Source of the DNA: Nymphaea colorata
Lineage: Eukaryota > Streptophyta > Magnoliopsida > Nymphaeales > Nymphaeaceae
Length of the DNA stretch: 64,000 bases
Assembly (NCBI RefSeq): GCF_008831285.2
Contig: NC_045142.1
Location: 18,539,354-18,603,353 of the forward strand
Direction: 5' to 3'
The stretch's first letter is position 1; every line of letters starts with the position of its first letter. Under the pieces are notes generated by a model. That model saw only the letters and a list, made by a program, of their open reading frames with translations. It did no database searches and was not told where the DNA came from. A program made the position numbers and the translations under genes. Of the stretch, positions 2,873 to 34,720 are shown one piece after another.

Positions 2873-5800
2873 TTATCTGCATGGCTGTTCTTCAAAGTCA
2901 GAGAAGAAGAATCCCTTGTCAAGACAAAGTTGGAACTCCCAATGCCAACTTTCTTGATTATGCTGCTGTCAGTAACAATCTTGCAAGAACCCCATGTCTC
3001 TGCTTGTAACTCAACACCCAAATAGTTTAGATGGTCAGAAATGCTGTTCCCAGAGACAGACCTGTAAACCACGTGGATGAAGCATGATAACCAACCAGTG
3101 AAACATACACAACCCTGCATGCTAAGGGAAGGGAGAAAAAAATCTACCTGCTGCAACTTGGGTCCTCACCAGAGCTGTCGCATACTTGCTCAATTCTGTA
3201 TACCAAGCTTCCCACACCAAGAGTATAAAGCCATACCTACAATTTTGTATAAGTATACATCTTACAGAGGAATCTCCATGCAAAGAAAATGATCTTTTAA
3301 GTTTACCATAATCATGTTTGGCTACCGAACTAAGTGGATGTTTTTTGCCAATTTAACCTGTCTCTGCATTTTTGTTACCTAACTCCGTGGACGTTTTTTT
3401 GCCAATTTAACCTGTCTACACATTTTGTGCATTGGTTACTGCAGCAAACCTAAATGTGGAAAATAGAAGTTTGAGAGTTGATAATTGTGACCCATTGCAG
3501 CAATTAGGAGGGTTCACAACAAGTTGTACCCTATCATTCTACACCAGATTAAGCTGTATGATTTTTCTTCCAATCAGTGTAGATACAGAAAATCCGACCC
3601 ATGTCACATAGGTGCGGGGTGCGGTAATTTCCAGAAAATTTTTTATACGGTAATTTTCAGAAGAAGTTCAGAAAAATGAGAAAAATGTAACAGGCAGAAA
3701 CACCTGACGCCTGACAGCAAGCAGGCGTTCAGCAAAAAATATGAATTGATGCTCATAGCTATCTTAGCTCATTTTTAACTTTGACAAACTGAGGATGCTG
3801 AAAGCCTGCAGTATGTGATCCAAGACAAATTTATATGTTTCTAACAGTGATGCAAGTATGCAAGTCCCTGCCTACTCCCACCCTACCAAGCATTTTCTGG
3901 TGTCTCTTTCGAACTTAACCTCTTTGATGTGCTAATCATGGTCCAGTTGCTGGAAGACGATACTTGGACCAGAGATTTCTTCAGTGAAGAAACTTAGTAC
4001 TCATTACTATTCATAAAAACTCTTGGTCCTTTAGAGATCCAAGTTCAGGTAATCCAAGTCCCTATTATTATAAAAAGAGCATGTAACGTGTCCATATGGG
4101 CAAATACTTAGAAAAAAAGAAACAGGCTCTGAAATGCTCAATGGGGAAAAGGGTAAGAGCAGGGTTCATAAATAAGTCAAGCTCAAGTAACTCTCCTCCG
4201 TTCAATTGGGCTCAGTCTGTGACAATATATGTATTATTTTTCAACTATGTCACTAGTTAGAACTTGGGAGTTCTGCAATAGTGATTTTTTTTTTTCCTTT
4301 GAGGAGTTTCAGTCCTATTGTATTGCTCTGGGGCATTAATCATTCAAAGAAAAATTATTTTCAGTGTTCTAGCTTGATCTCTGTCCAAGCTCAATCTCAC
4401 TACCCAAGCTCAATAATTTAAACTCAAGTCAAGCCCAATGAAAACCAATGAGTTTGCAATTAGGAAATTACCTCACGAGGAAAATGATGGTATGTCTTCT
4501 GAGGGAAGTAGGTATAATATGGAGGCAAATGAGGCACCATATCATGTTCATTAGTGATACGGAAAGTAGCTGGCACATGTTCACTGAAGTAGGAAGCAAA
4601 CACTGAATTCCCAACACGTGGTTGACCAAATGTGATGAGTTGAGTAATGTTTGCTCCATAGTTGACCTGGAACATGTTTATAAATTTGACGTCAACATGC
4701 ATCCCAATGTATATTTGACCAACAATACTGTTTAAAACTGTTGGTTAAAATCATTAGACCAATAGAACAAGCTGTCTAGTCACCAAGAACAAACAATTAA
4801 TTTCTATGACAGTTTGTCACAGTTACTGACATTCTCCCACTTTGGCAAGCGAGAGAGGAAGAGAGAGAGTATGATAAATTGAAAGAAATCTGCACACAAA
4901 TGAAATGTGAAATCTCAATTAAGTCTGTGCATATATATATATTTATTACATACACACACAAAAACATCCATAAATACATTATATATATACATATACACAC
5001 ACCCCTCGCGATACTTGGCAAAGGACCAGAACTGTAAGCATAAGAATACACCAAGATTTGGCATTTTAACAACATAGAATATCATTGTTTCAGCTGTAAA
5101 GCCTGTAATATATAACTTCTAACACATGGACAACCTAATATACACATTTATGCACATCACATCAATGTGCTACCAATGCTACTTATGGGGAGACAGATGG
5201 AATTTTCTCAAATACATAAAAAATTGGAGCAACCAAAATTTTATAGGAAAAGCACACTAGCGATGCTAAGAATTTTCAGTGACATCATGATATCACATGA
5301 AAAGCACAAAAAGTAAAACCTTCAAGAAAAAAGGACAGCAGTAAACAATCATTTTACAGAGTCAGACTCCAAATGAGACACGACTCGCAAGGAAATTTGC
5401 AATTGACATTGTACTTAGATACCAGCAAAATGCCATAAGCAGCCATCATCATCACCAACATAAGATGAGAAGACACTCCTAGAACATCAGTGTGGATGAG
5501 ATAGAAAAATATGAGGTTGGGCCCATCAAAAACTGGATGGCTTGAAATCCAAAGCATGCTTGTATATTGATCATTGAGACAATCAGACTGGGCCAACCTG
5601 TAATGTTAAGTTGGTGTGTATTTAGTGCATGCATGGATGGTTAAGAAAAATAAAAAATCACTAACTGTTTGCAGTTAATCATAAAGTTCATGTCAGCTTA
5701 CTTTAAGGTCAAGTGCACAAAAGGATGCCATAGCTCCTCCCATGGAATGTCCAGTAACCAGAACACCAATTCTTCCGTATAATTCCCAAGCTCTCTGAAC

Positions 5801-8800
5801 AGCATTAACAACTCCAGGACGAATGCTTGTGTTGTGGTACGCAGAATAGAAGCCATGGTGCACCTGGGAAAGAGAAAAAGTTATTCCAAATAAAATTTCT
5901 GGCGGAAAACCACTCTAATAGTTCTTTACACAACTAACCATTGCATCATGCATGCCAGGATAGTTCAGGTCCAGTTGTTTCCAGAACAGATCCTCAATCC
6001 AATTCTGTAAGCTGCATTTGATTATCATTGTACAAAGTAAGAGACAGAAGCTTCAAGACAGAGAGACGTAGAGTAGAGACATGCAACTTCAGTAAATGAG
6101 CTTCATTCTACTTAACAGAGAGTAGATTCTTGCTGGATAAAGAGAGGTGACAGTGTGGCATAAAGATACTTGAAATTGAGAATAAAGTTAATAAACATAT
6201 TGGCACCCCTAGCTTTTCTTAGCACAAGTTTCTATATTACAGATCAACCCCTCAATTTTGTTGGCTTTATTGGGTTTCAGGTAGCTCTAACGCACTGTTT
6301 GGTTGGAGGGCAAGAGAGGGATGGAAAGGAAAGGAAAGGAAAGGAAAGGGAGGGAAAGACAATGGGAAAAGAAAGGAAAAAGGTGATTATAAAGCTTGTT
6401 TGGATAGAAAGGAAAGGAAAGGAAAGGGAGGGAAAGACAATGGGAAAAGAAAGGAAAAAGGTGATTATAAAGCTTGTTTGGATAGAAAGGAAAGGAAAGG
6501 AAAGGGAGGGAAAGACAATGGGAAAAGAAAGGAAAAAGGTGATTATAAAGCTTGTTTGGATAGAAAGGAAAGGAAAGACTAAAATCATGTTTGTTTGGAC
6601 TATATAAAGGAAAGAAAAGATATAATTTATAATACTTTACAATAATACCCCTAACATTCAAAATGTTTAAAAAATTGAGAGGTTTCGCTTCTAGTGGAGC
6701 CCCGGTCTTGTGTTCAACGAGAGTCCATGCTCCATACCCTTGAGAGAGTGCCAATGGGTTGGGTTTGACCCAAACTCAACTCATACTGAGCTTGAATTCA
6801 CCGAGCTTTGGTAAAAAGGGGTTCGGTTTGAACGTAACTTGGAAGAAACTCTTGAATCTCTTGTTTGGTTCGGTTTTTATGAGATGGCACCAAGATGTCA
6901 ATGTTGTTAAAACCTAACCTCGAGTCGAATTGGACACCAAAGAGGGAGAGAGAGAGATTGAAAACATCAAAAATTAATACTAACCATCAAAAAATAATCA
7001 CTATAGGGGCATTAATTAGCGCTGGTTTATCAAAAATTTGTTTCTTAGGAAAAATATTTTTAATTTGATTTCCTGATTCAATAAAAAAGGAACCACACTT
7101 ACACTCGACATTTCATTCTATAGTAATAAATCTAGTAAAAATTTAGATCAATCAAACAAAATGTTGGTAAAAATAATAATTGTCTAAAGACAAAAATCAT
7201 ATAGCAAAATAAAAAATAACATTCATGTCTTACATAACTCCAGCTCTGCTAAGCATCCAAAGTAAAACATTCTTTCGCTTAGAAAAAGGACAAGCAAAAA
7301 ATGTTTCCATCCTTTTTTCATTATCAGTAAGATGAAGATATGCTTTGATTTATAACTCTTCTTCAAGACCAATGACTTCAAATGCTGGAAATATGTCTTC
7401 TTTAGAATATTAATTTGAATGTCTCGGCTCTTGTTCGACATTACTTTTTTCAATTGCAGTAGCAACTCTTTTCAAAGGCATCTTTCATTACTTCAATCTC
7501 TTTTAAATCATCTTCATTTAAACGTTGGGCTCAACTTGGACTTCATACTCATCTCCTAGGTTGATAAATGGTTTTAATACTGCTTGATTTTGAGAAATCA
7601 TTTCATCAATAAGCTGGATTTTATCGCCAGTACTGTCACACGCTGAAGTCATTTGGTTGCACTTTTCTTTCGCTGTCATCGATCCTTCCCATGTTGCTCC
7701 ATCATTACCAAATAAATTTACTAAATTCTCATAGTTTGGAACAGGTGTCATCATCCACTTTTTTGCCATTGGATTTGCCTATAAATAACACAAAAAAGAT
7801 ACAACGGTAAAGAAACTCATATTTAACATAAAAATGTGATTATAAAAAAAAATTAAATCGCTACAAATAAAATTAGGTACCTCTATTGGTGGCTTTCATA
7901 CTTCGGGTTCAGCAGTCCACATATTTGTCCTTCAATCAATGCTAAATCCACTCAAACCACTTTTAAAGATGTCATAACAACTACTGAAATTAGACTTCAA
8001 CGTTTTCATTCAATTTTTTATGTGATCTTTGGTGAGCATTTTACCCAAGTTATCGTTTAGTTCTGTCACAACATTATCATACGCAGTTGTAGTAAAAGTG
8101 ACATTGACTCTATTGCTTATTATTTGTTGAAGCAGTAATGCATCAATCAGCGCATCATCCATAAATTGGCTTCATTGTATCTTATCACTCTTTCCTCCAT
8201 CTGTATATATTTGATTCTTGTTCATTGTTATTAGCTAAATGCAAAGAAAACTAGTTTAGGAAAGACATACATAATGAAAAGAAAAAACAACGTGTAATAA
8301 TAAAAGATCAAGTAATTAAATTCAATGAACGTCTACAATGACAAATAATATAAAGAGAAAAAAATCAACATGTCTCATATACAAAGTTATTCAATTTATT
8401 GAAGTTTGAAGTTGATAGTTCTACCACATAGTCGAAGAGATGCTTTGCCGTGTGAATTCTCCAAACCTATACTCTTCATCTACATCAACTTGAACAGAAT
8501 AATTTTCACTAGGTTGATTCATAAGTTCTGCATCAACATCTTCAATAATGTTAGCATCTAGATCGACACCCGTGAAAAAGTTGTGCAATGTACAACATAC
8601 TAAAATGATCTCCGACTGTGTACTGTAGGAATAAACTGGTTCTGTCGAATTAGCTATAATTGAGAATCTTTTTTTCAAGACACCAAATGATCTTTCAATA
8701 ACATTTCGCAAAGAAGCATGCCGAAGATTAAACAACTCTTTTGCATTTTCCAGGCCACGCTTGGAGTATTCTTTCAAGTGATGTGTCACACCCCTAAAGG

Positions 8801-11800
8801 GTGTGATAAGTCCACCTTTTAATGGAAAACCAGCATCAACAAGATAATATTTACCTAAAAAAATGAACACAATCACATGTTAAGTTCATATTTCATAAAA
8901 ATTATTAAATTATACATGCTTTTAATTACAATTACCTTCAGGAATTTTTAGTTTGTCTTTTTTCGTTAATGCATTTTTTATGATTCTAGAATCAGAAGTA
9001 GTTCCTTCCGAACCTCCTAATAAATAGGTAAATTTCATATCGAAAGAACATGCAGCCAACACATTTTGAGTTGGCCAGTCTTTTCTACCATGGTATCTTG
9101 GTGCATCCTCTGAAGATACTTTAACACTAACGTGTGTTCCATCAATTGCACCAACACAATTCTGAAACGCAATTCAATGTTAATGCAATATTGGCATATT
9201 ATAAAACAAAAAAACTAAATTAATTGATTTATTACCTGAAAGTATGGATAAAATCTATTATTGTATAAGATTTCATTTGGCACAGTTGATCCGTCAGACT
9301 CTTGAATGAATCTGTCTTCTAATAGAATAATTGAAATTACTACATTGTGAAAATATCGAGAAATTGTCTTTGTTGAATGATAGAACCAAAATTGAACCGA
9401 TCGATGTTTATATGTGTGAGACAACATCATGAGAAAGAGAAAAACTTGCTCTTCTACTTTACAATGTCTTGTATTACATAGTCCACCATCATGTTGAAGA
9501 ATATCACATAACTCTTTGAAAGTTGATGTTCCCATGCATGTTATATTGCGGCATTGTACATCATCATCTAATTATATATAATTTGATCTCTAATTTTTTG
9601 TCTTTCTTCATAAGATAGTCCAATTGATCGATGCACAAGTTGATGTCGACGTTGTCTTCGACGTATGAAATAATAAAAGATATAACATAAAAACAGAACA
9701 ACTTGTTGTTGTTGGTGTCGTCTCATGTCTTCTAATATGAAATAGGGTAAACAAATAAGTCGGTTATTTCAAACACTCTTTTTCCCATCACTCTTTTTGT
9801 AGAATATGGACCAAGGCCTTTCTAGTTTTTGTGGATTTCCTTCTTAACAAAGTTCCAAATTCTAACATCATCCTTCCCCTTTCTTTCAGCTCGTTCCTCC
9901 CCAGATGGTAAATATTCGACGCAGAGAATCCTGTTGAAGAAGCATTTTCACTTGCTTCCTACCCAACAGCCACCACCAAACTGATCGACCATCTAAGAGC
10001 ATCAGACTTTTTGTGGTACGTGGAGTCGGCTGTTAATTTAATATGTTATATTACACATTTTCCTTTTAAGTTCATGGGAATGCGGTTCTATATCATGTAC
10101 CTGTAGTGCACGCTAGATTATAATGGTTGGTCTAGAACCAATAGTAGATTCACGATAGTCGTTCGTCCTCTCTCAAACTTGGTCGATGAAGAGGTTGCAG
10201 AATCCCTTGTGAATGGATTCAAATTTGAGCCAACCTCCAGCTAGAGCTTCTAAGACTTGATTCAAGCTTGAGCTGGCCTAGCTCTGCTCATGTCCACCCC
10301 ACAACATACACCTTGGGTTTGTGCTGCCCATTTTACTCCTCGAAATTGGGCCAAATCAACTGAACCTCAAAATTGGGCCAAACCAACCATCAGATTTGTA
10401 AGTTGATTCCCACCTACTTGAGTCCTGCTCAAATTAGGAAGTGTTGCCTTCTATCTAATGTCGGGAATCGCTTGTCTTGATTGTCATCCTAGTGCACATA
10501 AAACTTAAAAATGATCTGATAGCTATTGTCTTTTTTATGTTGAATCACGATTACATGTACCAAACCTTTCCCTTCACCCTCCTTCTTGGTAGGTAAACAT
10601 GTTTGCATTGATGGTCTTTCTAATATGTGCATTTTGTGATTGCGAATGATGATTTTCTTCCGATTTATGTGTTCTTTTGCACTACGTTCTTTGTGAGTGT
10701 TTGAAATAAGTTGTTCTGTTTTTATGTTATATCTTTTATTATTTCATACATCAAAGACAACGTCGACAACAACTTGTGCATCGACCAATTGGACTATCTT
10801 ATGAAGAAAGACAAAAAATTAGAGATCAAATTATATATAAATTAGATGATGATGTACAATGTCGCAATATAACATGCATCGGAACATCAGCTTTCAAAAA
10901 GTTATGTGATATTCTTCAACATGACAGTGGACTATGTAGTACAAGACATTATAAAGTAGGAGAGCAAGTTTCTCTCTTTCTCATGATATTGTCTCACACA
11001 TATAAACATCAATCGGTTCAATTTTGGTTCTATCGTTCAACAAAGGCAATTTCTCGATATTTTCACAAAGTAATGAGTTCAATTATTCTATTAGAAGACA
11101 AATTCATTCAACAATCTGACGGATCAACTGTGCCAAATGAAATCTTATACAATAATAGATTTTATCCATACTTTCAAGTAATAAATCAATTAATTTAGTT
11201 TTTATGCTTTATAATATGTCAATATTGCATTAACACTGAATTGCATTTCAGAATTGTGTTGGTGCAATTGATGGAAGACATGTTCATGTTAAAGTATCTT
11301 CAGATGATGCACCGACGTATTGTGGTAGAAAAGACTGGCCAACTCAAAATGTGTTGGTTGCATGTTCTTTTAATATAAAATTTACCTATTTATTAGCAGG
11401 TTGGGAAGGAACTGCTTCTGATTCGAGAATCATAAAAAATACATTAACGAAAAAAGACAAACTTAAAAATTCCTGAAGGTAATTGTAATTAAAAGCATGT
11501 ATAATTTAATAATTTTTATGAAACATGAACTTAACATGTGATTGTGTTCATTTTTTTAGGTAAATATTATCTTGTCGATGCTGGTTTTCCTTTAAAAGGT
11601 GGACTTATCACACCCTTTAGGGGTGTGACACATCACTTGAAAGAATACTCCAAGCGAGGCCCGCAAAATGCAAAAGAGTTGTTTAATTTTCAGCATGCTT
11701 CTTTGCGAAATGTCATTGAAAGATCATTTGGTGTCTTGAAAAAAAGATTCCCAATTATAGCTAGTTCGACAGAACCAGTTTATTCGTGCACTACACAGTC

Positions 11801-14800
11801 TAAGATCATTTTAGCATGTTGTATATTGCACAACTTTCTCATGGGTGTCGATACAGATGCTAGCATTATTGAAGATGTTGATGCAGAACTTATGAATCAA
11901 CCTAGTGAAAATTATTCTGTTCAAGTTGATCTAGATGAAGTGTATAAGGTTGGAGAATTCACACGGCAAAGCATCTCTTCGACTATGTGGCAGAACTATC
12001 AACTTCAAACTTCAACAAATTGAATGACTGTGTACATTAGACACGTTGTTTTTTTTCTCTTTATATTATTTGTCATTGTAGACGTTCATTGAATTTAATT
12101 ACTTGATCTTTTATTATTACACGTGGTTTTTTCTTTTCATTATGTATGTCTTTCCTAAACTTGTTTTACTTTGCATTTTGCTAATAACAATGAACAAGAA
12201 TCAAATATACAAAGATGGAAGAAAGGCTGATAAGATACAATGGAGTCAATCTATGGATGATGCGCTGATTGATGCATTACTGTTTTAACAAATAACAGAC
12301 AATATAGTGAATGACACTTTTACTACAATTGCATCTGATAATGTTGTGACAGAACTAATCGATAAGTTGGGTAAAATGCTCACCAAAGATCACATAGAAA
12401 ATCAAATGAAAACGTTGAAGTCTAATTTCAGTAGCTGTTATGACATCTTTAAAAGTGGTTTGAGTGGATTTAAAAGTGGTTTGAGTGGATTTGGCATTGA
12501 TTCAAGGACAAATATGTAGACTGTTGAACCCGAAGTATGGAAGCCACTAATAGAGGTAGCTAATTTTATTTGTAGCAATTTAATTATTTTTTATAATCGC
12601 ATTTTTATGTTAAAATATGAGTTTGTTTGTCGTTGTTATCTTTTTTTGTGTTATTTATAGGCAAATCCAATGGCAAAAAAGTGGATGATGACACATGTTC
12701 CAAACTATGAAAAGTTGGTAAATTTATTTGGTAATGATAGAGTAACAGGGGAAGGATCGATGACAGCGAAAGAAAATCGCAGCTGAATGACTTCAGCGTG
12801 TGAGAGTACTGGCGATACAATCCAGCTTATTGATGAAATGATTTCTCAAAATCAAGCAGTATTAAAACCATTTATCAACCTAGGAGACGAGTATGAAATC
12901 CAAGTTGAGTCCAACATAGGTTCACTGTCAAAGCGTAAAAAAGGAGAAGTTTAAATGAAGATTATTTAAAAGAGATTAAAATAATGAAAGATGCCTTTGA
13001 GAGAGTTGCTACTGCAATCGAAAAAAGTAATGTCGTACCAGAGACAAGACATTCAAATAAATATTCTAAAGAAAACATATTTCCAACATTTGAAGTCATT
13101 GGTCTTGAAGAAGAGTTACAAACTGAAGCATATCTTCATCTTACTGATGATGAAAAAAGGATAGAAATATTTTTTGCTTGTCCTTTTTCTAAGCGAAAGA
13201 ATGTTTTACTTAGGATGCTTAGCAGAGCTGGAGTTATGTAAGACATGAATGTTATTTTTTTATTTTGTTATGTGATTCTTTTGTCTTTAGACAATCATTA
13301 TGTTTACCAACTTTTTGTTTGATTGATCTAAATTTTTATTAGATTTATTACTATAGAATGAAATGTCGAGTGTAAGTGTGGTTCCTCTTTTATTGAATAA
13401 GGAAATCAAATTAAAAATATTTTTCCTAATAAATTTTGATAAACCATCGCTAATTAATGCCCATATAGTGATTACTTTTTGATGGTCAATATTAATTTTT
13501 GATGTTTTCAATCTCTCTCTCTCTTTGGTGTCCAATTCGACTCGAGGATAGGTTTTAACAACGTTGACATCTTGGTGCCATCCCAAATGAGAGATTGAAG
13601 AGTTTCTTCTAAGTACGTTCAAACCAAACCCCTTTTGACCAAAGCTCGATGAATTCGAGCTCAGTATGAGTCGAGTTTGGATCAAACCCAACCTGTTGGC
13701 ACTCTGTCAAGGGTATGGAGCATGGACTCTTGTTGAACACAAGACCGGGGCTCTATTAGAAGGGAAACCTCTCAATTTTTTAAACATTTTGAATGTTAGG
13801 GGTATTATTGTAAAGTATTATAAATTATATCCTTTCTTTTCCTTTATATAGTCCAAACAAACATGATTTTATCATTTCCTTTCCTTTCCTTTCTATCCAA
13901 ACAAGTTTTATAATCACCTCTTTTCTTTCTTTTCCTTTTCATTTCATTTCTTTCTCTCTCCTTCCTTTCCTTTCCTTTCAATCCCTCCCTTTCCCTCTAA
14001 CCAAACAGGGCGTTACCCTATGCTTCCCTTTCCTTTCCCTTCCTTTGCAACCAAACAATCTCTTTAATTTTCTTTCTTTTCCCTTCTTTCGAATTAATCA
14101 ACCAAACAAAGGATTGATTGTTCAATCCCTCCCTTTCCCTCCAACCAAACAGGGCGTAAGTTTGCATTGATCTTTTTGTGTTGTGACTGCTCTCTCAAAC
14201 AGTGAACTCCTTGTAACATCGGTAAACCAAAGGGTTGGACTGGTTTGCCATGTTGATGTATTACGCAACCACATATCCACTAACTATTTTAACATATTCA
14301 TTTTCCTATTTTTAGGATCCCATTATCACGAAAGTGAGATAATAATTTAGTCTATTAGATCCATGACCACACCCAATAATGCATTAAAAAAAAAGGCATG
14401 TCTATTAAGAATTACATGTTTAAAAACATTTAAATCATTCATGAGAATAAATGAACATGAGGATGAAACTCTTATCAAGCTATTAAGCCATGAAAACAAA
14501 AATAAAACAGGACCTCTTATGGGTAGGGTAGATTAATGCAATTAGTCCCTTCATTCCTCAAACAGAACCAAATAAATAAAATGTGACAAAACATAAATTT
14601 TCAGTTTCCTTTTTTGTATCATTGTCACAAATATCTTCTTTGGGTTTTCAACAGCAATTCAGCAAGTTTCTTCTCCAGTACAATGTGGCAGAGTTGAAAA
14701 TCTTGGCAGATTTTTAAGAAGTCAAAAAAAGAGAGCTTATAAAATAGAATGTGAAAATAAAATTTTGATAACTAAAAATTTTAAAAAGTGAAAAAATGCA

Positions 14801-17800
14801 AAAAAAAAAAGAACAATTTTGCATGAAACGCAAAAAAAATGTGTTTTCACATTTTTTTCGATTTGGGTTTTTTTCAAAATGTCATGTTTTTTTCCTTTTC
14901 TCTAGCTGACTTGTTTCTAATGGTTTTTTCACTCTTTTTTTTGAAAAACATGTTTTCTGTGACAATGTAATCTGTATACACTGTCTCTCTACATACAGTA
15001 AAAAAGCTTAGTGAGATATAATGCCTATAAACTCATATAGTATCCAACATTTACTAATATCTTATAAACTTTGTAAGTCCAGAAATTATTAAAGATAGCA
15101 CTTATTTATTACAGAGAATGCATTACTTTCTTGTTTCTTGCCCCTTTAAGTGCTCAAATATCAGCTAGAAATGCATAGATGCTTAAGAACTGGCCATGCA
15201 CCAGCCCGTGCTTAGTTCACTTCAACAAATGGTTAGGCAAGAACTTGTGGAAAACTAAGAAATGCAGAAGGTCTAACAATATAAAGAATACCTATGTTCC
15301 TGTGTTCCCCTGAAAGCTATCACAATAGCATTGAGATCTGGAGCAACACCTACATAGGCCTGTTGTAAAATAATAGTAAAAAACCACCAAGAACGGAAAT
15401 AAGAATAATGATAATAACTGTAGTAGTATAAGTGTGTAGAATATATACACAAAGAGCATGCTATACATAGCCTTATTGTCTTGATCGCTAGGGAAAAGAG
15501 TGCCTAACAGCATGATCACAAGCACTTGTATTGACTTCACTTGTATAGCCATTGAAATCTACAAGTGGACATGCAGAAGGGATCCACTAGTTTTTCCTCT
15601 CATCAATAACAGCACTGATCAGTTACTGACTTAGCTTCAGCAACATGTTGCTATCAACTGTCACTTGAACCAGCCTCTATGCTAGTTCTGACCTTTCTGA
15701 CTGTGCAAGCCCAGTCTAAGATTGGTCGACAAAGGGGAGAGAAGGGGGGCGTGTTTCCAATGCATGTCCACTTGTTTCTCTTCTCATCAATGGTGGCATC
15801 GATCAACCAATCAGCTGAAGCAAACTGTTGCATATTCAACTGGCACTTGGTGCAAGTCCAGCCTAAGGCTGGCCAATAAGGGAGAAAGAGATAGAGAGAG
15901 AAACAGAGAGAGGCTTGCTTGCAATGCGCAAGCACACATCTGTGCACACTGCACACACATGCACATAAAGCTTCTTTAATTTTTTTATACTGGCGTTACT
16001 GCCCTTCTCAAAACATGGGAATAATCTATCTGCTAACAAGCTGATATGGCACATCAATTGCTAAAGGGGGAATGTCCTCAAGCTCCTATTTACAATATCC
16101 TCCATATCCTGCCTTTACAAGGATTTACAATCCTCAGGAGATATGTGTAAGTGTATGTCAAATCAGCAGCACTGTAGAAGAAGGTACCTGTAGGCAGTGC
16201 TGCACGTCCACGATGAGTTCTATCATTTCAAATCCCTGTGGAGAAAATTTAAGGTCTACCCGTTTCAGTAATTCGCGAAGGTTACACAAGCTTCTTCCAG
16301 CAAAAAAGTAGAAAAACAAAGCCTTAATTTGTGGTTCAAACTTTAAACATAACAAAGCAACAAGTAGGCACACCTCGGTCATGTCTTTGCATCTTGAGCA
16401 GGTCCAAGTAAAAAGCTCAGTTGAATCTGATATGTAGACCTAGAAAAAGGACAAAGAATGAACTTGTGAATGGACAGATGTATCACAAGAAAGACACTGC
16501 AAACAGAAGAAAGTGACTGCTAAATGTTATCCTTAAGTGGAGGTTTACAGTTAGACACTAGAAGCATGATATTTTAACAAAATAAATATGGCACACAAGG
16601 CAATTTTGTAAACTTGTATAACTGAAGCAAGCAGATTCAAGGTTTCAAACTGCGACTACAGCTCCAAAAGAAAACCATCACCAGCCACACAAGTGACAGA
16701 GACATTTTAATGCTAAACTTACTGCAGAGGCATATTCCACCAGTATTCTTGCAAGTGTGTGGTTATAACCAGTGGAATGATCTTCATAGTCGCACTTAAC
16801 AGCAAGCTCTGAAAGCATGGGAAAACAAAAAAGCGATGATTGATCAATGTTTATAACATGGAGGGAGTGGAATGAACATCATAGTCACACTTAACAGCAA
16901 GCTCTGAAGGCAGGGGAAAACAAACGAAGAGATGATTGATCAATCTTCAACACAGAAGGAAGACATCTGATTGAGCCCAAAAAAATACGGAAAGATTTTA
17001 TGTGACACTCCAGGTAAATTTATAAGATAAACTCACATGTCCAACTCCTCAAAAAAAAAATGCAAAAGCAACCAGCATGCAGACATAGCACAAACGTGCC
17101 AGCAAATTGCTGAATTTGGACCACATACACCAAAAGCTTCCACTAATTAATGATTATCCTTTTCAGAAGATTAGGCGAACAACTACAGTATCTAGGATCA
17201 CTATTTAAAACAGACACGAACATGCACATAATGAGAGAGAGAGTACAAAACCAAAAAAACGACTTTCTCCTTGACTACATTTTGATTAGGTAAAACTGAA
17301 TTTTTACAACATCAAATGCAACAAATAAAGATAGAACAGAGTCACCAAGTTACCAGTTACCACCTACATCAGCTGTGGTACACCTGCCAGAAACACTGCC
17401 TTAAAATTAAACTATGTCACACGGACACGGCAAAATGGGCCACGTACCGGTGTCGACACTCCGACACCTGGATACCGACACTTGGACACGGCAGGATACG
17501 TTTTGGATCGGGTCTGGGTCAGACCCGATCCAAACCACTTTACTAACCCGACATTCTTTGTTTTGTTTGAGACTTTCTTTCTTATGACTTATAAGATTGG
17601 TCATGAACAATGTTTTGTTTGAGAATCTGAGACTTTCTTTCTTGTGACTTATGAGATTGTAAGAGTGAATTATTAATTTAATGTTTTTTTATTTTATTAT
17701 CCTTTTTATTTTTTTAGAATATAAAATTCACCGTATCCACGTATCCTAAAATTTTGAAAATTGCCGTATCCAAGTACCCGTACCCGTACCCATAGGATAC

Positions 17801-21161: not shown

Positions 21162-22011
21162 GCAAGGATCCCGACCGTTTGGATCAGGAAAAAAATATTC
21201 CGGTGGACTGTTTCCAATAAATGTTCAAGAAGCGCCGATTCTCGTCCAATGGTCCTCGACGCTTTTCTACCGGCCGCCGGGCATTGGCCTCCCGGCGACT
21301 CTAATGGCGCCGGGTCATCCTCCCCCTAGGTCGTCCTCCCTCGGAAGAGCCGAGGCGAGGAGGACAGGGGGCTCGAGCACCGTCGGGTAGATAGGTGCGG
21401 TTCATAAGGATCTGTGCCTTCCGGTGAAATAGTTAGTTAGCAACCACCGTTCCAAAGAACCGAGGGGCCCATTTCCCGTCTGTCTATAGGGATGGGTACG
21501 GTACTCTCAATAACTCTGTCCATATCCCACCATTTAGTTTATCTGTTTGAGTAAGATTAGGGTCGAGTTAGAACTTTTTAATTAGTTCGATAAGTTTTTT
21601 CAATCGAACTGTGTCAGATGTCACCAGCACATTTTATTTTGTTCTTTCTCTTTTTTTCTTCTTTTATATATATATATATGGGCTCAACTATAAACTTTTT
21701 TGTCCATTGCCATGACTTTGTTATAACATCTTCATAAAGTCTTCGTATGTGTCATTGATGGCACTCTTATAAACTCTTTATTTATCATTAATGACATCTT
21801 TAAAAACTCTTTCCACGTCACTAAGAATTTATGAGATATTAAAATATAAAATATTAAAGATTTCAAATACATATGGACAACACAATTAATACTCAATGCA
21901 TATAAAGTTGACGGTCCAACCCATTTATCGCCAGCAAAAGCCGACTTTGTAGAGCCTTGGGTCTACTCGGCCCGACCCGATGTCCAACCTTAAAATCAAA
22001 TACCAATTTTA
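21162..22011. other. Lipase upstream region
   Basis: 21162-21480 is relatively GC-rich with many CG dinucleotides and should hold the rest of the lipase 5' untranslated exon and its minus-strand promoter. The transcription start cannot be placed. A short TA run is at 21665-21680. No other gene is seen. Confidence 0.4.
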
Positions 22012-22464
22012 GGGCCTGTTTGGTTGGAAGGAAAGGAAGGGAAATTGAGGGATTGAGCAATTTCTCTTGTATTTGGTTGGCTAATTAGAAATGAGGGAAA
22101 GGAGAGAAAAAAAGAAAGTCTGTTTGGATGGGAGGGAAGGAAAAGGAAAGGAAATGATTGTATAGTGTAAATTAAATCTCTCCCAAATCAGACGGATTGA
22201 GAGGGAAATGAAAAGGAGTAAGTACAAAAGTGTTGACTGCCCACAATACCCCTCCACGTTTTTTTTCTGCCTGCCTCCCAACCTTTTGACTATTGAGGGT
22301 ATTATTATAAATTGTATCGTTTCCTTTCCATTTCATTCACTTTTATCCAAACAAGCTTTTATAATCACCTCTTTCCATTCTATTCCCTTCCCTTCCCTTT
22401 CCATTCCTTTCCCTCCCTTTGCCTCCATCCCTTTCCCTCCATTTCCCTCCAACCAAACAGGGAG
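22012..22464. mobile_element. 453 bp Harbinger-type MITE
   Basis: The left end GGGCCTGTTTGGTTGG and right end CCAACCAAACAGGGAG are inverted repeats flanked by TTA on both sides (22009-22011 and 22465-22467). The subterminal GGAAGGAAAGG and CCCTTTCC tracts match the ends of the large palindrome at 6291, so it is probably a non-autonomous member of the same family. It has no coding capacity. Confidence 0.85.
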
Positions 22465-24790
22465 TTAAATTTTATAAATTAAGATTTTTTAAAAATTATA
22501 TACATGTCAATTTAAAAATTTTGAAAGTGTAAGCCGCCCTTTCTCTCCGTCCTTGATTCTTGAATAGCAACACTTAGAGATTTGGAAACGGGGGTACTCC
22601 ATCACAATGCCAAGGACAACTGGTGATTTGGATCGAACCCAGTTCTATCATATTAGATCTAAGTGGATTACGTGTAATCATGGAATCTGGATCTAAGTCC
22701 CTGTTCAAACTCTATTTTTTAAATTCACATTTGGATTCAACTGGCAGATTCAGTGATGTGTTATCGCTCGATTCTTCATCCGATCTGAATCGGTTATCCA
22801 GGTCGAATTGGAACATAAAACTGCATATCAACTTTGAATCCGGCTTGTTTCGGCTCAATCAGATTCGTTTTAAGCATTTTAAATTTGAAATCGACTCTAT
22901 TCTTTGAAGCCGAACGTAGACTCAACTAGCATGCTTCGGTATTATGGAATCAGGTCGAATCGGATCTAACTCGAATTGAGTTATCAAATTGAAACCCGGC
23001 AGTAATCAAATTAAATTTGATCTTACCATTTATTCAGACACACGAAATCGAAACCTGCCCCACAGTAATATAGAAATTTTCACTAAACAGGATTAAGGAA
23101 GTGTTTTGGGTGACACTCTGAAAAAACCTGGTTTTGTGAAAAAACCTGATTAAAAACTAAGTTTTGTAAACTTCGCTTAGATGACAAGTGAAAATTTTAG
23201 TTTGGAGGTAAAAGTTAGTCTTACTTAAAAAACATGACAAAAGAGATGGGGTTTTCAGGCTTTCATGAAATGAAAACTTGGTTTGGCAAAACCTGGTTCT
23301 AATAAAAACCCACATCCAAATGTTCTTGAAATGGTGTTTTGGAACAAAGCCAGGTTTCATGTATGTTGTCAGCCAAACGCCTCCCAAATCTTAATGAAAT
23401 AATAGAAAGACAGTTGGGTTCTTAATTTCAAAATTTAGCATATTTTGAGCATCACTGTTTATCCCCAAGAAATTATGACAAACCAATAAATGAAATTACC
23501 AGCGTTACGTTTAGATGACACCCCGAAAAGGCATGTATGGATGACGGTCAAAACAGTGGTGTAGCGATATTTGCCCACACTAGCCTCACAAAATTAATTT
23601 AATATAAATGTTAATGTTTTGATATATTTGATTGCTATACAAGTAAGTGACTTAAAGAAATTAAAGGTATTGAATGAGTGCCCCAACAAAAAAAAAAAAA
23701 AAAAAAAAACTGACTCACTAGTGGGTCAAAACCTCTTTAGACAAAACATTGTCTTCAAAAGAGAGTGAATAACCTAACCCCTTCCTGAAATCTTCCACAA
23801 AATACATTGTTTCTAGTTCTTGCGAAACATACAAACAAAGTTTTGAAAACTGGTTAGAAAACCAACTTTTGATAAAATTTTATTTGTAAGAACTAAGTTT
23901 TTTAGGGGTTTCATCCATATGCTACCGTAGTGATCGCCATAGAACAATCAAACATTGATTTGAATGTGTTGATTTCCATTCCCCATGTTAGATACCACCC
24001 TATTGTTTATGTTTTTTTCAAACATGAAAAGAAAGAGCAAGTAACAATTAAAATTGAGATGCAAGATAGCCATTGTCAAATAAGTAGGACAAAGTTACTT
24101 TATATATTTTGGTATAAATTTAAATCTTATTGCGCATAATTAATTACATCCTTTTTTTTAGATGGAAGAAACAAAGATGGAACTATTGAGATAGTCATTT
24201 CTTTATCTAACATACATGCTTCTTTCATTTGAACCAGCCATTGGACCTCTTGGTAGTCTGCTTATTTCATAACAAGGCTTGTATCGAAATTGTTTGATTC
24301 CTATTGATGTCATTATTTGAGAGTTGAGTTCAAGAAGGTGTTGTAGACAAGTAAAAGAAGTATTTTCTCATAATGTTCATAGGAGAGTCAAAACTATCAC
24401 CTAACCCCTCATCTATCTAAAGTAGATGACCTATTTATGTGCCTCGAAGTGTAGTTCGGACCTGGTTAAATTTACATTTTTTTTGCAGTACAAAGAATTA
24501 ATAGTATGAAGATTTTGAACATAATTAGCTGCTTACCTACCATTGTGTCAACCTCTTCACAAAAATAAATCATGAAGAGTTATTCAATCCACCTAAAATA
24601 AATATACTTGGTGGTTGTCCATCCCCCTCCCCCTTCTCTCTCTCCCTCCGTGCAGGTGCAGCGATTGAAGAAGGTGTAAACGGCAAAATTTAAACAAAAA
24701 AAGAAAAATCCTTACCACCTAAAAAATATAAGTACGAGTCTCAAACTCATGAAACTCGGATGCGTATAAAGCGTAGCGGAAAAAAAAAAA
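22465..24790. other. Intergenic, no gene recognised
   Basis: AT-rich intergenic sequence. Between about 23100 and 23390 'aaaacctggttt' motifs appear in both orientations and may be a decayed inverted-repeat element. A 24-base poly-A run starts near 23686. The short open frames here (22623-22907, 23930-24139) have no recognisable domain. Confidence 0.45.
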
Positions 24791-24880: not shown

Positions 24881-25287
24881 AACGAAGAGGAAAGCCGAGG
24901 CCTCCTCCACCGCTGGACACCCGTTTCCTGAGAAGGTACGTTCTTCAGCTTCTTTTCTTCTTCTTCTTCTTGCTGCTGCTGCTCCTCCCCGTCCTCCCTG
25001 GTTTCCTTCTGTTTTTTTTTCTTCTTCTATGTTTTCGTTTTCTTTTCTTTTTTTTCTCTTTGTGGCGACGGAGACCGGGCCTCCTCCCTGTCCTCCCTGG
25101 TTTCCTTCCGTTTCGTCTTCTTCTTTTCTTTGTTTTGAATCTCTTCCCTAGCCTACCACCGTCACCTCCTCCTGCGCCATTTCTCCTCCCATCCGTGACA
25201 AGGTCTTTCTCTCTTTCTCCCTTTCTCTCTCTTATTCGTTGTTTTATGATGGCATGTTATATGAGTGGACATAACCTTATGGTTGAT

Positions 25288-25886
25288 GGGGGCTTCACCA
25301 TGTGCGACTCTATCTTCAATGTGTTCAAGAAATAAAATATAAACTGTGTTTTCCATAGTGTGGAATACCCTTTGATTTGAGATAATAATCATGTTATTTA
25401 AACTGAAGGCAGTGTTTAGTCAATGTGAATAAATGTGTGCTTAGTGGGGGGAAGTCAGGCCGCCTAGAGTTGCAGCTTATGGATGTAAAACACCACTAGG
25501 ATCAGATTTTCCTTGGTTGCCGTACCACCATTAGCATACTGGAATGCTTGTCAAGGAAACTACTTAAGTCTCTGGTGTTTGTTACTGGGGGCTTCACCAT
25601 GTGCGACTCTATCTTCAATGTGTTCAAGAAATAAAATATAAACTATGTTTTCCATAGTGTGGAATACCCTTTGATTTGAGATAATAATCATGTTATTTAA
25701 AGTGAAGGCAGTGGTTAGTCAATGTGAATAAATGTGTGCTTAGTGGGGGGAAGTCAGGCCGCCTAGAGTTGCAGCTTATGGATGTAAAACACCACTAGGA
25801 TCAGATTTTCCTTGGTTGCCGTACCACCATTAGCATACTGAAATGCTTGTCAAGGAAACTACTTAAGTCTCTGGTGTTTGTTACTG
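25288..25886. repeat. 299 bp tandem duplication
   Basis: 'ggcttcaccatgtgcgactc' occurs at 25291 and 25590. The following 299 bases repeat with only a few differences, for example 'aactgtgtt' against 'aactatgtt'. Both copies hold 'cttagtggggggaagtcagg'. It has no coding content and no recognised element ends. Confidence 0.85.
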
Positions 25887-26748: not shown

Positions 26749-27020
26749 CTGAAACCTCTCATTCTTTTATTAAACATTTTGACCGTTAGGGGTATTATTG
26801 TAAAATATTATAAATTCTATCCTTTCCTTTCCTTTATGTAGTCCAAACAAACATGATTTTTAGTCTTTCATTTCCTTTCTATCCAAACAAACTTTTTAAT
26901 CAACTCTTTCCTTTCCTTTCCATTCCATTCATTTCTCTTTCCTTTCTCTTCCCTTCCCTTTCCTTTCCCTCCCTTTCCCTCCCTTCCTTTCCTTCCCTTT
27001 CCCTCCAAACAAACAAAGCG
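26749..27020. mobile_element. Truncated Harbinger end
   Basis: This segment matches the outer right arm of the palindrome (13764-14156) in order: 'gaaacctctca', 'gttaggggtattattgtaaa', 'gtccaaacaaacatgatttt', then CCTTTCC tracts ending CAAAGCG followed by TAA (27021-27023). The left end is missing, so this is a fragment. Confidence 0.65.
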
Positions 27021-27029
27021 TAAAGTCGT

Positions 27030-29416: not shown

Positions 29417-32363
29417 ATGGAATATGTTAGTCCAGAGGGTCTGCGTTTGGATGGTCGGCGTGCAATGGAGGTAAATCTCTCTCTCTCTCTCTCTCTCTCT
29501 TCCCCTTCTCTCATATTCTGCTTTGGAATGAGTTTCAGATGAGGCAGCTTCGTGCAGAGATGGGTGTTGTAGCAAAGGCAGATGGGTATCACCTTTATAA
29601 TTATATCTAATTTGTTTTAGTTATGAATATTTTTTAATTTCATTTACCTTGTGTTGGAAAGGTTACTGTCTATTGCTTGTAGGGATTGATTCTGTCTCGT
29701 CCCTGCAACTGAGGGCTATCCTCAACAGATATTTTTAGTCAATAACCTTCAAATGCTTTTTGTTTCCCTCTTTCCAGCTCTGCTGCTTTTGAGATGGGAA
29801 ACACAAAAGTAATAGCAGCTGTTTATGGGCCAAGAGAGGTTGGGATCTTTTCAAATGTTTTTCATTTTGTTAAATTGGTTTTGTTGGTATCATTTCTTGC
29901 TATATGGTTATTGCATTTCATTCTAAATAAGATTCTAAATATGTTTATTTTCCTTTCGAATTTGGTTTCATCTGTCTACCTAATTCAGCTAATTTTGCCA
30001 CAATCTATTTTTTACATGAACCACCTTTTGCACGAATAATTTTGGTATTCTGATATTCAAAATCCACACAACTTTCATACAGAACTTGGCAAACTATTTT
30101 TTTGCGAGATAAACATGATTTGTATGCCTGTTCTTTGCAAATGGACTATTCCCGAACACACTCATTCATGTGATGGTTATCAAGATTTAATCACAGACGA
30201 TAGTCACAAATAACATGTTTTTTCGAAAAAAACATGTTAAATGCAAAAAATAAGTCAGCCAAAGAGCGAAAAAATATTTTCTTGGAAAAACCTCAAAAAT
30301 GAAAAAAAAAAACTATAACATGTTTTTTTAACATCTTTTCATTTTGGATGCTTTTCATTTTTTTTTGCATTTTGACGCATTTTTATATATTTTTTTGCAT
30401 TTTTTGCATTCCTTTTACATTGTTCACTACCACATTTTTAAATTTTCACATTTTACTTTTAAGATATTTGTTTTAATTGTTTTAAAATTTGCCGAGATTT
30501 TTTGAGAAAAGCAATCCGTATTATACCCGAGAAAAACCTTGCAGTTTAAAACCGGTAAACGATATTTGTGACTATGATTTTAATTAGTTTGGTATTTGCA
30601 ACCACATTTGAGCTTTCAGCTTATGTTGAGCTTTGTTTGCTTGGGAAATAATTTTTTGCTTTTCTCTGTTTTTTTACATAGTTGTGCAACATTGAACTAA
30701 ACAAGTGCTGATAAATTGAGTGAATCTTTTCTCTGTTTAGGTTCAAAATAAAAGCCAGCAAGTCAATGACCAGGCATTGGTGAGTTTCTGCTTGTGTCTA
30801 TAGTCCCTTCATTTTTTTTCATGTTCACATGTTTGCATCATTTTCCTCATCTTCCTCTTCCCTTTTGCATACAGGTTCGCTGTGAGTACAGCATGGCTAA
30901 TTTTAGCACTGGTGATCGCAACAGGAGACCAAAAGGGGACAGGTTTTATTCATTATGAATCATTTCTAGCTTTTTCTTCTGACATGGTTCTTGCAACTAG
31001 TCACTTTCAAGTGTTAGTTTTCTTTATCTGGAGGGCAGAGCTGTTCTATGATGCTGATGTTGAAATTACTGCATAATTATCATTTGCTTCTATGTTTTGT
31101 TGGTAACAAAGCCACTACTTATTTTGGATGACACAACCACCTGATGCCTTTTTTATCATGACAGGTGTGTGTGTGTGTGTTTTTTTTTGGGAGATATATC
31201 TTCTCTATGCATGATCTTGGACTAGGTGCTATGTCACATGGGTGCGAGGTGCGGGTGCCAGTGGGGCACCTCCAAAAAAAAACTTGGGTGAAGGGGTGCC
31301 GCAAGGGTGTATGTAGTTATGTACACATTTAGTTTATAGATATAAGTATATGTATTCATAATATATATAATTATATGGTTGTTTTTTAGCTTAATCGGGC
31401 CTTTTTTCTTACTTTTAATACTGTAAATAAAGAAAGAGAGGGAGAGAGAGAAGAAAAAAAAAGGGAAATTTTTTTTAAAGGTGAATAAGAGAAGGTGCGG
31501 GTTGCATGTCGGAGCCGCACTCATGTCCAATGCACCTAATCTATGTTCATGTCCTATAACTACTATGTAGAACTTTGGTTGCTGTTTCATACACATGCAA
31601 GTACTGTGACCTAGAATGGGATGAAGTTTTGATAAAGTAATTTGTGATGGATGATCTTGTTGCAGAAGTTGCCTTTTCTTTGATGTAATGCTGCATGAAA
31701 ACATGCTATTAGGCCTTGTTGACTGTCCTTTATTTCATAGAATTGCTAAGTGTGTCAGCTTACAGTATGAGTAATCAACGATACTTTTTTAAAAAATTTC
31801 TAGTCCATTATAGGTATTGGAGTCGACTGATACCGAAAGTCCACATCTTTTTTCTGTTCCTTTCTTGCTCATTTAAATTTATATGCTTTTGGGGCCTTCA
31901 CATTATTCTGTGATCATACTCTTATATTGGGCTCTAGAAATAAATATATTTTTATCCTTAGTGTGTTTGGAAATCCCTCCAAGTTCTATCAGATTTTTGT
32001 AAACGGTTGAACTTGTGAGCTAAATTTTTAGCTTTTTTATCTATGAATTCTAGTGAACTTGATGATCCCTTGTACATTTCTAATCTGTTCTAAAGATGAA
32101 CTTCTTGTTGTGGCAGGCGTTCAACAGAAATTTCTTTGGTCATCCGTCAGACTATGGAAGAATGCATACTAACACATTTAATGCCTCGTTCTCAGGTTGG
32201 GCACTACCCTGATTTGAGTGAGCTGCCTTTTTTTAAGCTTCAATGTTATGATATTCTTGTTTTGAATCTTGTATTGTTGCAGATTGACATATTTGTACAA
32301 GTTCTTCAAGCTGATGGAGGTAATGTACCATGTCATTAGCATTTAATATTTGTGTTTGTGAGT

Positions 32364-32402
<39 letters not shown>

Positions 32403-34720
32403 GCATGCACAACTTCTATGTTGTTAAGATGTTGTTGTCTTTTAGGAACCAGGTCTGCATGTATCAATGCTGCAACATTGGCACTCGCAGATGCAGGGAT
32501 CCCAATGCGTGATTTAGTTACTTCATGCAGCGCTGGGTATCTTAACAGCACTCCTTTGCTTGGTAACCATATTTTGTTTCTGTCTGAAATATGCCTCATT
32601 TTGAATTCCCTATGTGGTGTATCTGTTTATATCTTGTTATGCTTGTTGTTTTCCTGTCAACAGACTTGAACTATATCGAGGATAGTGCTGGAGGCCCTGA
32701 TGTGACCGTTGGAGTACTAGCGAAGCTTGAGAAAGTCACACTTCTCCAGGTTCCCTGATGGAATGTGTTCTCTTCTAACATATTATTATTTTGAGATGTT
32801 ACTATTGTCAGAAATGTTGACATTTCTTTTTCAATGCAGAAAAAGAGAAATTAGAGAAAAATGAAAAAATAGGAAAAAACTGCAATAGTTTGAAAAAAAA
32901 AGAGCCACAGTGAAGCTATCACATTTTAATTATGTTTTCTCATTTTTTTCAGAAAAAATGTTGCTTAATATATTTTATCATTTCAATGTTTCTTTTAATG
33001 TCGTAATAATTATTTTGAATTTTGATTGATATGTTTGTAAGAAAGTTAGTGGGAAACTCAAATTTCAAAATAAACTTCCCAATTAATACCTCGCTGATAA
33101 AAGCCCGACAATGATATTTGTTAGATTGGTTTGCTGATGTGATTTTGCAGTTAAGGGTTAGCTCTACTGGACTGCTGTTGTCTGTCTAGAATTTATTGCT
33201 TTGAAAAGGTTAGTCATGACAGTGTGTACTGATTCCACTAGGAGGATGTAAAGCCTTCCATAGAAACTAGTTGATGCCATAATCAAAGAATAAACTTGTT
33301 GCTGTAAGCATTCATCTCTGCTGTATGTTCATAAGCTTGGTCTGTCTACTGTCAAGGACTCAAGAGTCGAGAGTTATGAATATGCAAGTTGGTCTAACTT
33401 CTGACCTGGAACCGACACATATCATTGGATGGTATTGATTGGGTTAGTCAGGTCTCTTAGAATTCGAAGTTGACCTGAAGTTTGATCGAAGTTATAAATT
33501 TACAGTAACTTGCTTCACACTTTTTTCCCTTGCTAAAATCAATATTACCTGTTCTGCTGGATGTGGTTTCACATTCTTTCTGGTTAAATCTGGATCTCAG
33601 CCTCTAAGGTGGGATCCAAGCCACACATGGATCTGCACCCTATTCTCAAGGAAGGAACGTAGTACTGGATGGAGGATGATGAAGTTCATACCGTACCTGT
33701 CTCCTTTCTATTTAGAGCCAAATTGGTGAAAAGTTTCCATGTCATTTATTTAGTGGTTTATATGGAAAATTATATGAATTGCAGTGTACTAGCAAAAAAA
33801 AAAATGTAGAGTTCTTGAGTTGATAAGATTTACCAAAGCGGGAAAATGGGTTTGGGTGGAAGGTGCAATTTTCTAGAATAACTCAAGTATGTTGGCTATG
33901 TTAAGGAGAAACCCATGAATGCCTGCAAGTCCACCAGAGAACAATTCTCTTGCCTGCACATGAGGTGATCTAAGAAAAGGTTTCAGGAAACTCGTGTCAG
34001 AAATCTGTGCCTAGGTCAAGCAATATATGAGCTTCTACCTATAACATGCTACTCGAAATAATCATGTATCTTCATGATAGAGAACCTTTTTGGAAGAAAA
34101 AAGTTTGTCATCATCTTGTAGAAAAAAAGGGTGGGAAGAATCTTTATCTAGATACCATTACTTTCTTTGCAGGATTTGAACTAGAAGGTCCATATTCTGA
34201 TTTGATTTCCAGAATTATTTATTCAGAGCATACAGCTAGTTCATGGCGACTGGTTGATTAGTCATGTCTTATTCTTGCATGTCATATGAGCAGGGGTAAA
34301 ATAAAGGGTGAAAGTAAGGTGATTATACCAGACATGCAAATCCACGATCAATTTTTGATTTGCTTGTGTTCTTCAGCTATGCATGCATTTTCTAGATTCT
34401 GGTAAAATACATTTGTGCTTGCTTTTGGTGTCTGCTTCGTGCTTCATTTGTATGTGTGTAGAACATTTGGATATTCTTATGCTGGTTTTTGTTTGTCTCA
34501 GATGGACTCGAAATTACCTATGGACATATTCGAGGATGTCATGGAACTAGCAATTGCTGGCTGCAAGGCTGTGGCTAAGTATATAAGGGAAGTACGTGAT
34601 GTTGGCCAGATTTCTGTTATGGACAATTTTCCTATGCATATAAATTTAATGTTTTCTGAATCTTCTGAAATTTAGCAGTTGTGACTGAGTTATTGTTTTT
34701 GTTGTTGGAGTTGGGGTGTG

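Follow-up and report, generated by a model that had tools for sequence, protein, structure and literature searches.

Introduction

In maize, the double Ds of sh-m5933 is a classical structure in which one copy reportedly lies inverted within a second copy of its own family, and Mu killer is the best known natural case of an inverted transposon that silences its own family. To our knowledge, the origin of such inverted copies is not well documented. Here, we describe a head-to-head pair of Harbinger copies in a lipase intron of Nymphaea colorata. The pair lies in a stretch of 64,000 nucleotides (RefSeq assembly GCF_008831285.2, NC_045142.1, positions 18,539,354 to 18,603,353, forward strand), which we call the window and in whose numbering its features are given.

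Published accounts offer several points of comparison. According to the available passages of PMC3260210, nested Ds elements break chromosomes and are selected against, and no double Ds is present in B73. In Mu killer, as described in the passages of PMC3440606, both ends derive from one side of the element. Medicago MtPH includes nested and composite elements, and MtPH-A6-4 carries 60-bp subterminal repeats (passages of PMC2213677). In the titles, abstract openings, and passages of the open-licence literature, we found no head-to-head Harbinger double element or palindrome family.

Structure of the double element

We are fairly confident in an account in which a sister Harbinger copy would have inserted head-to-head into a TTA triplet in the B-end of the left copy (the terminus on the transposase side), a later deletion taking the facing 5′ ends and leaving a build of the double-Ds type. 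The genome searched was the 407.8-Mb assembly in 783 contigs, in which the window is located on C5. On the minus strand, the lipase intron spans 9,280 bp (9.28 kb) from its donor at 15291 to its acceptor at 6012 (GT...AG), with readable exons on either side; the exon piece at 4460-4744 matched Lipase_3 in a Pfam scan. Self-alignment recovered a giant inverted repeat, 6480-9707 against 10705-13984, with 90.6% identity over 3,305 aligned columns (E 0.0). Its arms are about 3.2-3.3 kb long and 997 bp apart, and they differ at 201 of 3,103 ungapped sites (6.5%) and by 16 insertions or deletions. Thus, self-alignment and splice-site reading bore out the original prediction of two facing Harbinger arms in a lipase intron. 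Read from left to right, the element consists of an A-end, open reading frame 1 (ORF1), transposase, the joined 5′ regions, transposase, ORF1, an A-end, TTA, and a B-end (Table 1).

The ends of the element carry most of the argument. The outer terminal inverted repeats (TIRs) share 19 of 20 bases and are flanked by TAA on both sides, in agreement with the single outer target duplication proposed before. The accompanying claim that there is only one pair of TIRs did not hold, as a third TIR lies near the right edge, directly adjoining a TTA both in the window and in a segmental duplicate of the right half of the locus, L012. The 141 bases to the right of this TTA match B-ends elsewhere in the genome, namely those of L018 (88.5%) and of M1, a miniature inverted-repeat transposable element (MITE; 73%). 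We had considered this segment as a tandem duplication of the right A-end, which was ruled out by its identity as a B-end. The outer ends therefore comprise an A-end and a B-end, which is the ordinary arrangement: among 18 loci scanned for TIRs, four (L018, L021, L039, and L042) have one of each with equal target triplets, and the others are incomplete, degraded, or cut. We aligned ten other B-ends with those of the window and its duplicate. The TTA is uninterrupted at the matching place in eight of the ten, mostly after GATTGGAT, and at this place the window and the duplicate read TIR, then TTA. Here an A-end meets a TTA of the B-end to the exact base, which is the junction left by insertion into such a triplet.

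The interval between the arms had been described as a unique spacer of about 1 kb. Its size is confirmed, but its uniqueness is not: it begins with the 5′ untranslated region of the left copy (9708-9778) and ends with the right copy's own 5′ region, which resembles element L039. The part between them matches a low-copy stretch on C7 (L040), another part of which is carried by L039, and it is probably captured DNA. Different parts of this captured stretch are found in the 5′ regions of two Harbinger copies (window 9783-10318; L040 3730-4460; L039 3843-4208). L040 was also considered as a host gene, but only short open frames were found in it. Within 9700-10710, no correctly facing TIR was found at six or fewer mismatches, the four weak matches there not being followed by family sequence. 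With the 5′ regions of the two copies meeting at 9778/9783 and the right copy lacking its B-end, the arrangement fits a deletion after nesting.

Origin of the double element

The duplicate, at 25.09 Mb on C5, matches window 10717-16142 at 92%, a span that includes the right arm, inner TIR, TTA, B-end, and lipase sequence; no second arm was found in about 33 kb around it. The right-hand junctions recur there, so they are not an accident of assembly and are older than the duplication. The duplicate is itself a mosaic (L012 and L009, C5:25.088-25.097 Mb), in which the lipase part is followed by an inverted match to window 30200-32932 at 91-96%.

A join of two separate copies during assembly is consequently very improbable. 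Only one assembly is available and it shows the central junction once, but the arms have diverged as described above, the outer TAA pair agrees, the right-hand junctions recur, and two more head-to-head pairs exist in the genome.

We aligned 15 copies to place the arms within the family. The left arm, the right arm, and the duplicate form one group, with a support of 99 in a first tree of 11 sequences (without L013, L014, L015, and L021, which were too short) and of 100 in a tree of 14. Distances are 6.6% between left and right, 6.1% between right and duplicate, and 6.6% between left and duplicate, and at least 8.0% to all other copies compared. On these grounds, we regard the arms as sister sequences. 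The right arm and the duplicate are joined by a branch of about 0.4% (support 90 and 92). At the time of the duplication, divergence between the arms was therefore probably only some 1%.

Head-to-head pairs occur elsewhere in the family. Pairs were counted from the ORF1 list alone, with 40 of 138 candidates scored and three small second matches of listed copies dropped. Three pairs among these 40 copies, including that of the window, are no more than 10 kb apart, each of them head-to-head. The pairs that follow in distance are separated by 72 kb (in tail-to-tail orientation) and by 167 kb. Under uniform placement, with the window pair counted as one, 0.04 neighbours are expected within 12 kb and the probability of two or more is about 0.001, a value that local transposition would raise. 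Tandem arrangement was seen at L046, where two copies share one triplet at about 5099-5141 (A-end, TTA, B-end).

One of the other two pairs, L047 (C3, 1178-7488), is a head-to-head palindrome with A-ends and TAA on both sides and arms 14.5% apart. Its arms group together (support 84), yet their raw distances to L020 (12.3% and 10.8%) are smaller than that between them, and their sisterhood is therefore less sure than that of the window arms. The other pair (L048, L050, and L049; C4:159.4-171.0 kb) has A-end sequence and TAA on both sides, with the left TIR partly lost. In the stretches compared, its inner arms are 97.7% alike over 531 bp and its outer arms 88.4% over 1,289 columns, around a 3.4-kb centre; both arms share a stretch of about 0.85-0.9 kb that matches none of four family sequences compared. 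Equal TAA flanks alone are weak evidence at these loci, TAA being one of the two usual target triplets. Different centres at both loci and, for L047, the tree indicate that the two palindromes arose separately from the window pair.

These loci bear on the original prediction that the unit moved, or formed, as a single palindrome. The pair could have arisen by template switching or hairpin-end repair during transposition and then moved into the intron as a unit, which would agree with the sisterhood of the arms and with the existence of palindromes that have two A-ends and TAA on both sides. At the window, however, the stretch bounded by the two A-ends is flanked by TAA to the left and TTA to the right, and so did not land as a unit. 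The right edge of the whole element is a B-end, and the TTA next to the inner TIR is one normally found in B-ends. We therefore consider this origin quite unlikely here; it fits L047 and the C4 locus better.

Several observations weigh against head-to-head insertion into the B-end. The TTA is absent from two of the ten other B-ends (ATA in L016, a gap in L042). The inner copy lacks its own B-end and second target triplet, so that the insertion is visible from one side only, and the 9778/9783 junction is known from one place, the duplicate being without a left arm. The same-end palindromes of the family are also evidence that in-place inverted duplication occurs by some route.

Based on these features, we infer the insertion, the deletion, and their order as follows. 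An outer Harbinger element with both ends would have been present in the lipase intron, a sister copy would have inserted head-to-head into its right (B) end at TTA, and a deletion would then have removed the two facing 5′ ends, joining the 5′ regions. In principle, transposase could pair the left A-end with the inner A-end and move the intervening unit, giving same-end palindromes like those at the two other loci.

Coordinates of features

Table 1. Features of the double element and the lipase intron in the window.
Feature	Position	Strand	Basis or state
Lipase intron holding the double element	6012..15291	-	Splice sites, exons; Lipase_3
Outer target triplet TAA, left	6288..6290	.	As seen in ordinary members
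Left outer TIR (A-end of the outer copy)	6291..6310	+	TIR scan
Left (outer) Harbinger copy: A-end, ORF1, transposase, short 5′ untranslated region	6291..9778	-	Self-alignment, exon matches
78-bp tandem repeat in left A-end	6329..6577	.	3.2 copies, perfect
Left transposase gene remnant	8424..9727	-	Frameshift in exon 1, stop near end of exon 3
Probably captured low-copy segment in right copy's 5′ region	9783..10318	.	L040 on C7, 89%; part in L039
Right copy's own 5′ region	10312..10704	+	L039, 90%
Right transposase gene remnant	10710..12022	+	Lacks start codon (deletion); exon 2 frameshifted
Right ORF1 remnant with Myb-like domain	12192..13240	+	Interrupted by stops
Inner TIR, A-end of the right, putatively inserted copy	13993..14012	-	TIR scan, B-end alignment
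TTA, putative target of the inner copy, normally present in B-ends	14013..14015	.	Present in eight of ten other B-ends
B-end of the outer copy, including right outer TIR 14137-14156	14016..14156	-	Matches to other B-ends
Outer target triplet TAA, right	14157..14159	.	TIR scan

The tandem repeat of the left A-end has 100% matches between its units; because it is perfect although the arms are 6.5% apart, its sequence marks it as recent or homogenised. Long tandem repeats are also present in the window at 35010-36282 (3.0 copies of 423 bp, 99%) and 25287-25886 (2.0 copies of 299 bp, 98%). A complete MITE of the Harbinger family with TTA on both sides lies at 22010-22468, and a solo A-end fragment at 26751-27023. 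No Rfam family scored above threshold.

Coding remnants and decay

Each arm contains a DDE transposase gene with two introns, followed by an ORF1 region. The exon 3 pieces of both arms scored above the Pfam cut-off for PF13359 and PF04827, which confirms the predicted transposase in each. For the predicted Myb-like ORF1, the support differs by arm: a right-arm piece matched Myb_DNA-bind_3 (PF12776) exactly at the cut-off (23.6 bits) in the profile scan, which covered ORF1 in the right arm, and the left ORF1 is recognised by its alignment with the right one. The PF12776 match is strong in homologue P0085. With TIRs of 14-25 bp, a 3-bp TTA/TAA target, a DDE transposase of the Plant_tran/DDE_Tnp_4 type, and a Myb-like ORF1, the element belongs to PIF/Harbinger. 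In a protein search with the transposase, the best scores among the 120 of 921 proteins listed came from many plants (50-57% identity), and the most identical relative among the matches listed was P0085 of N. colorata (76% over 59% of the query).

Both arms are dead. In addition to the transposase lesions in Table 1, the left ORF1 contains stops; the right start codon was lost in a deletion of about 50-57 bp, and the frameshift in right exon 2 is scored against the left arm. The three codon positions differ between the arms to an even extent (46/676, 54/679, and 41/677 substitutions), so both arms decayed without selection. We also considered whether the arms diverged under selection before they were joined; the codon positions are even, though evenness alone cannot separate nesting from duplication.

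Methylated cytosine deaminates, which is the basis for reading sequence decay as a footprint of methylation. Between the window and its duplicate, divergence is 6.36% in the element and 3.00% in the lipase flank. Transitions are in excess in the element at CHG sites (27/209 versus 3/224 in the flank, P = 1.3 × 10−6) and CHH sites (99/1749 versus 21/1095, P = 4.5 × 10−7), where the counts take each site from both sides and the P-values are rough. There was no CG excess in the element (25/225 versus 8/46), and transversions were not significantly in excess (64/3378 versus 25/1932). The CHG and CHH excess suggests past methylation of the transposon type, confined to the element.

A three-way count of the left arm, right arm, and duplicate gave 8, 7, and 12 of 114 for CHG, 13, 9, and 5 of 109 for CG, and 21, 28, and 25 of 776 for CHH. 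Had the locus silenced itself, the two arms might have decayed faster; in this count, they showed no excess over the single-armed duplicate. The result gives no support for extra silencing in cis, although silencing in trans would hit all three alike.

Predicted hairpin and possible silencing

The original prediction also proposed that the lipase pre-mRNA could fold into a long hairpin, and folding predictions agree: a long imperfect hairpin is predicted, in which the arms would form 48 perfect helices that are 21 bp or longer (up to 75 bp) and share 636 perfect 24-mers. The 24-mers common to both arms match all 12 family loci tested, with 28-282 matches each, and none were found in a 49-kb control. 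A trans effect on the family may thus be possible in principle.

Most transposase copies are broken among the 13 fetched loci that were scanned for transposase exons. L015 and L018 gave no match, L021 retains only part of exon 1 (without a stop), and L012 is free of stops but shows a single frame change. In L046, the second transposase copy is open as far as it was read, and the remaining copies have stops, most with frame changes as well.

A role like that of Mu killer would require lipase read-through to yield the long hairpin and its small RNAs to silence the Harbinger family in trans. The predicted pairing, the 24-mer matches, and the CHG-type decay of the element are in its favour. We nevertheless consider this role unlikely, as the two arms show no more decay than the single-armed duplicate and most scanned transposase copies are broken anyway. 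For Mu killer itself, the passages of PMC3440606 dispute the read-through hairpin model: plants that silenced had antisense RNA whose start lay within the element, whereas read-through RNA accompanied silencing failure. If the locus ever had a silencing role, this would have been stronger while its arms were still almost the same in sequence; today it is most likely a passive relic.

A wider scheme, which we regard as doubtful, is that the family repeatedly builds its own silencers. Head-to-head insertion into the B-end TTA would provide A-ends as a new pair of ends, palindromes so formed would spread (as on C3 and C4) and silence by hairpins, and the lipase intron would hold a founding stage that is not yet mobile.

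Comparison with known systems

The locus is a decayed Harbinger double element of the double-Ds type. Its details are new and its components ordinary, and the repeated head-to-head pairs of its family add interest. One family in one genome contains a likely intermediate, nested and with readable ends, and two same-end palindromes, which makes both the formation route and any silencing testable. Should a test find no silencing, the locus would still document that Harbinger can insert into itself in the manner of double Ds, as well as CHG-type decay confined within the borders of an element inside a gene.

The window element resembles Medicago MtPH lineage A6 in having the transposase before ORF1 and two transposase introns, and MtPH more generally in its TTA/TAA target, subterminal tandem repeats, and nested or composite elements; a head-to-head pair of copies is not described in the passages of PMC2213677. 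With Mu killer, it shares an inverted duplication of the transposase gene that adjoins a host transcription unit. However, the outer ends at the window are an A-end and a B-end, the arms are 6.5% apart, and any silencing or RNA from them is putative. In build, L047 and the C4 locus come closer to Mu killer than the window pair does, both of their ends being drawn from a single side of the element, the arrangement given in the passages of PMC3440606.

The likeness to double Ds is that a copy would have inserted in opposite orientation into a copy of the same family. That system belongs to the hAT superfamily, and the inner copy here is without its far end and second target triplet. Whereas the passages of PMC3260210 report no double Ds in B73, three head-to-head Harbinger pairs are present in this one genome.

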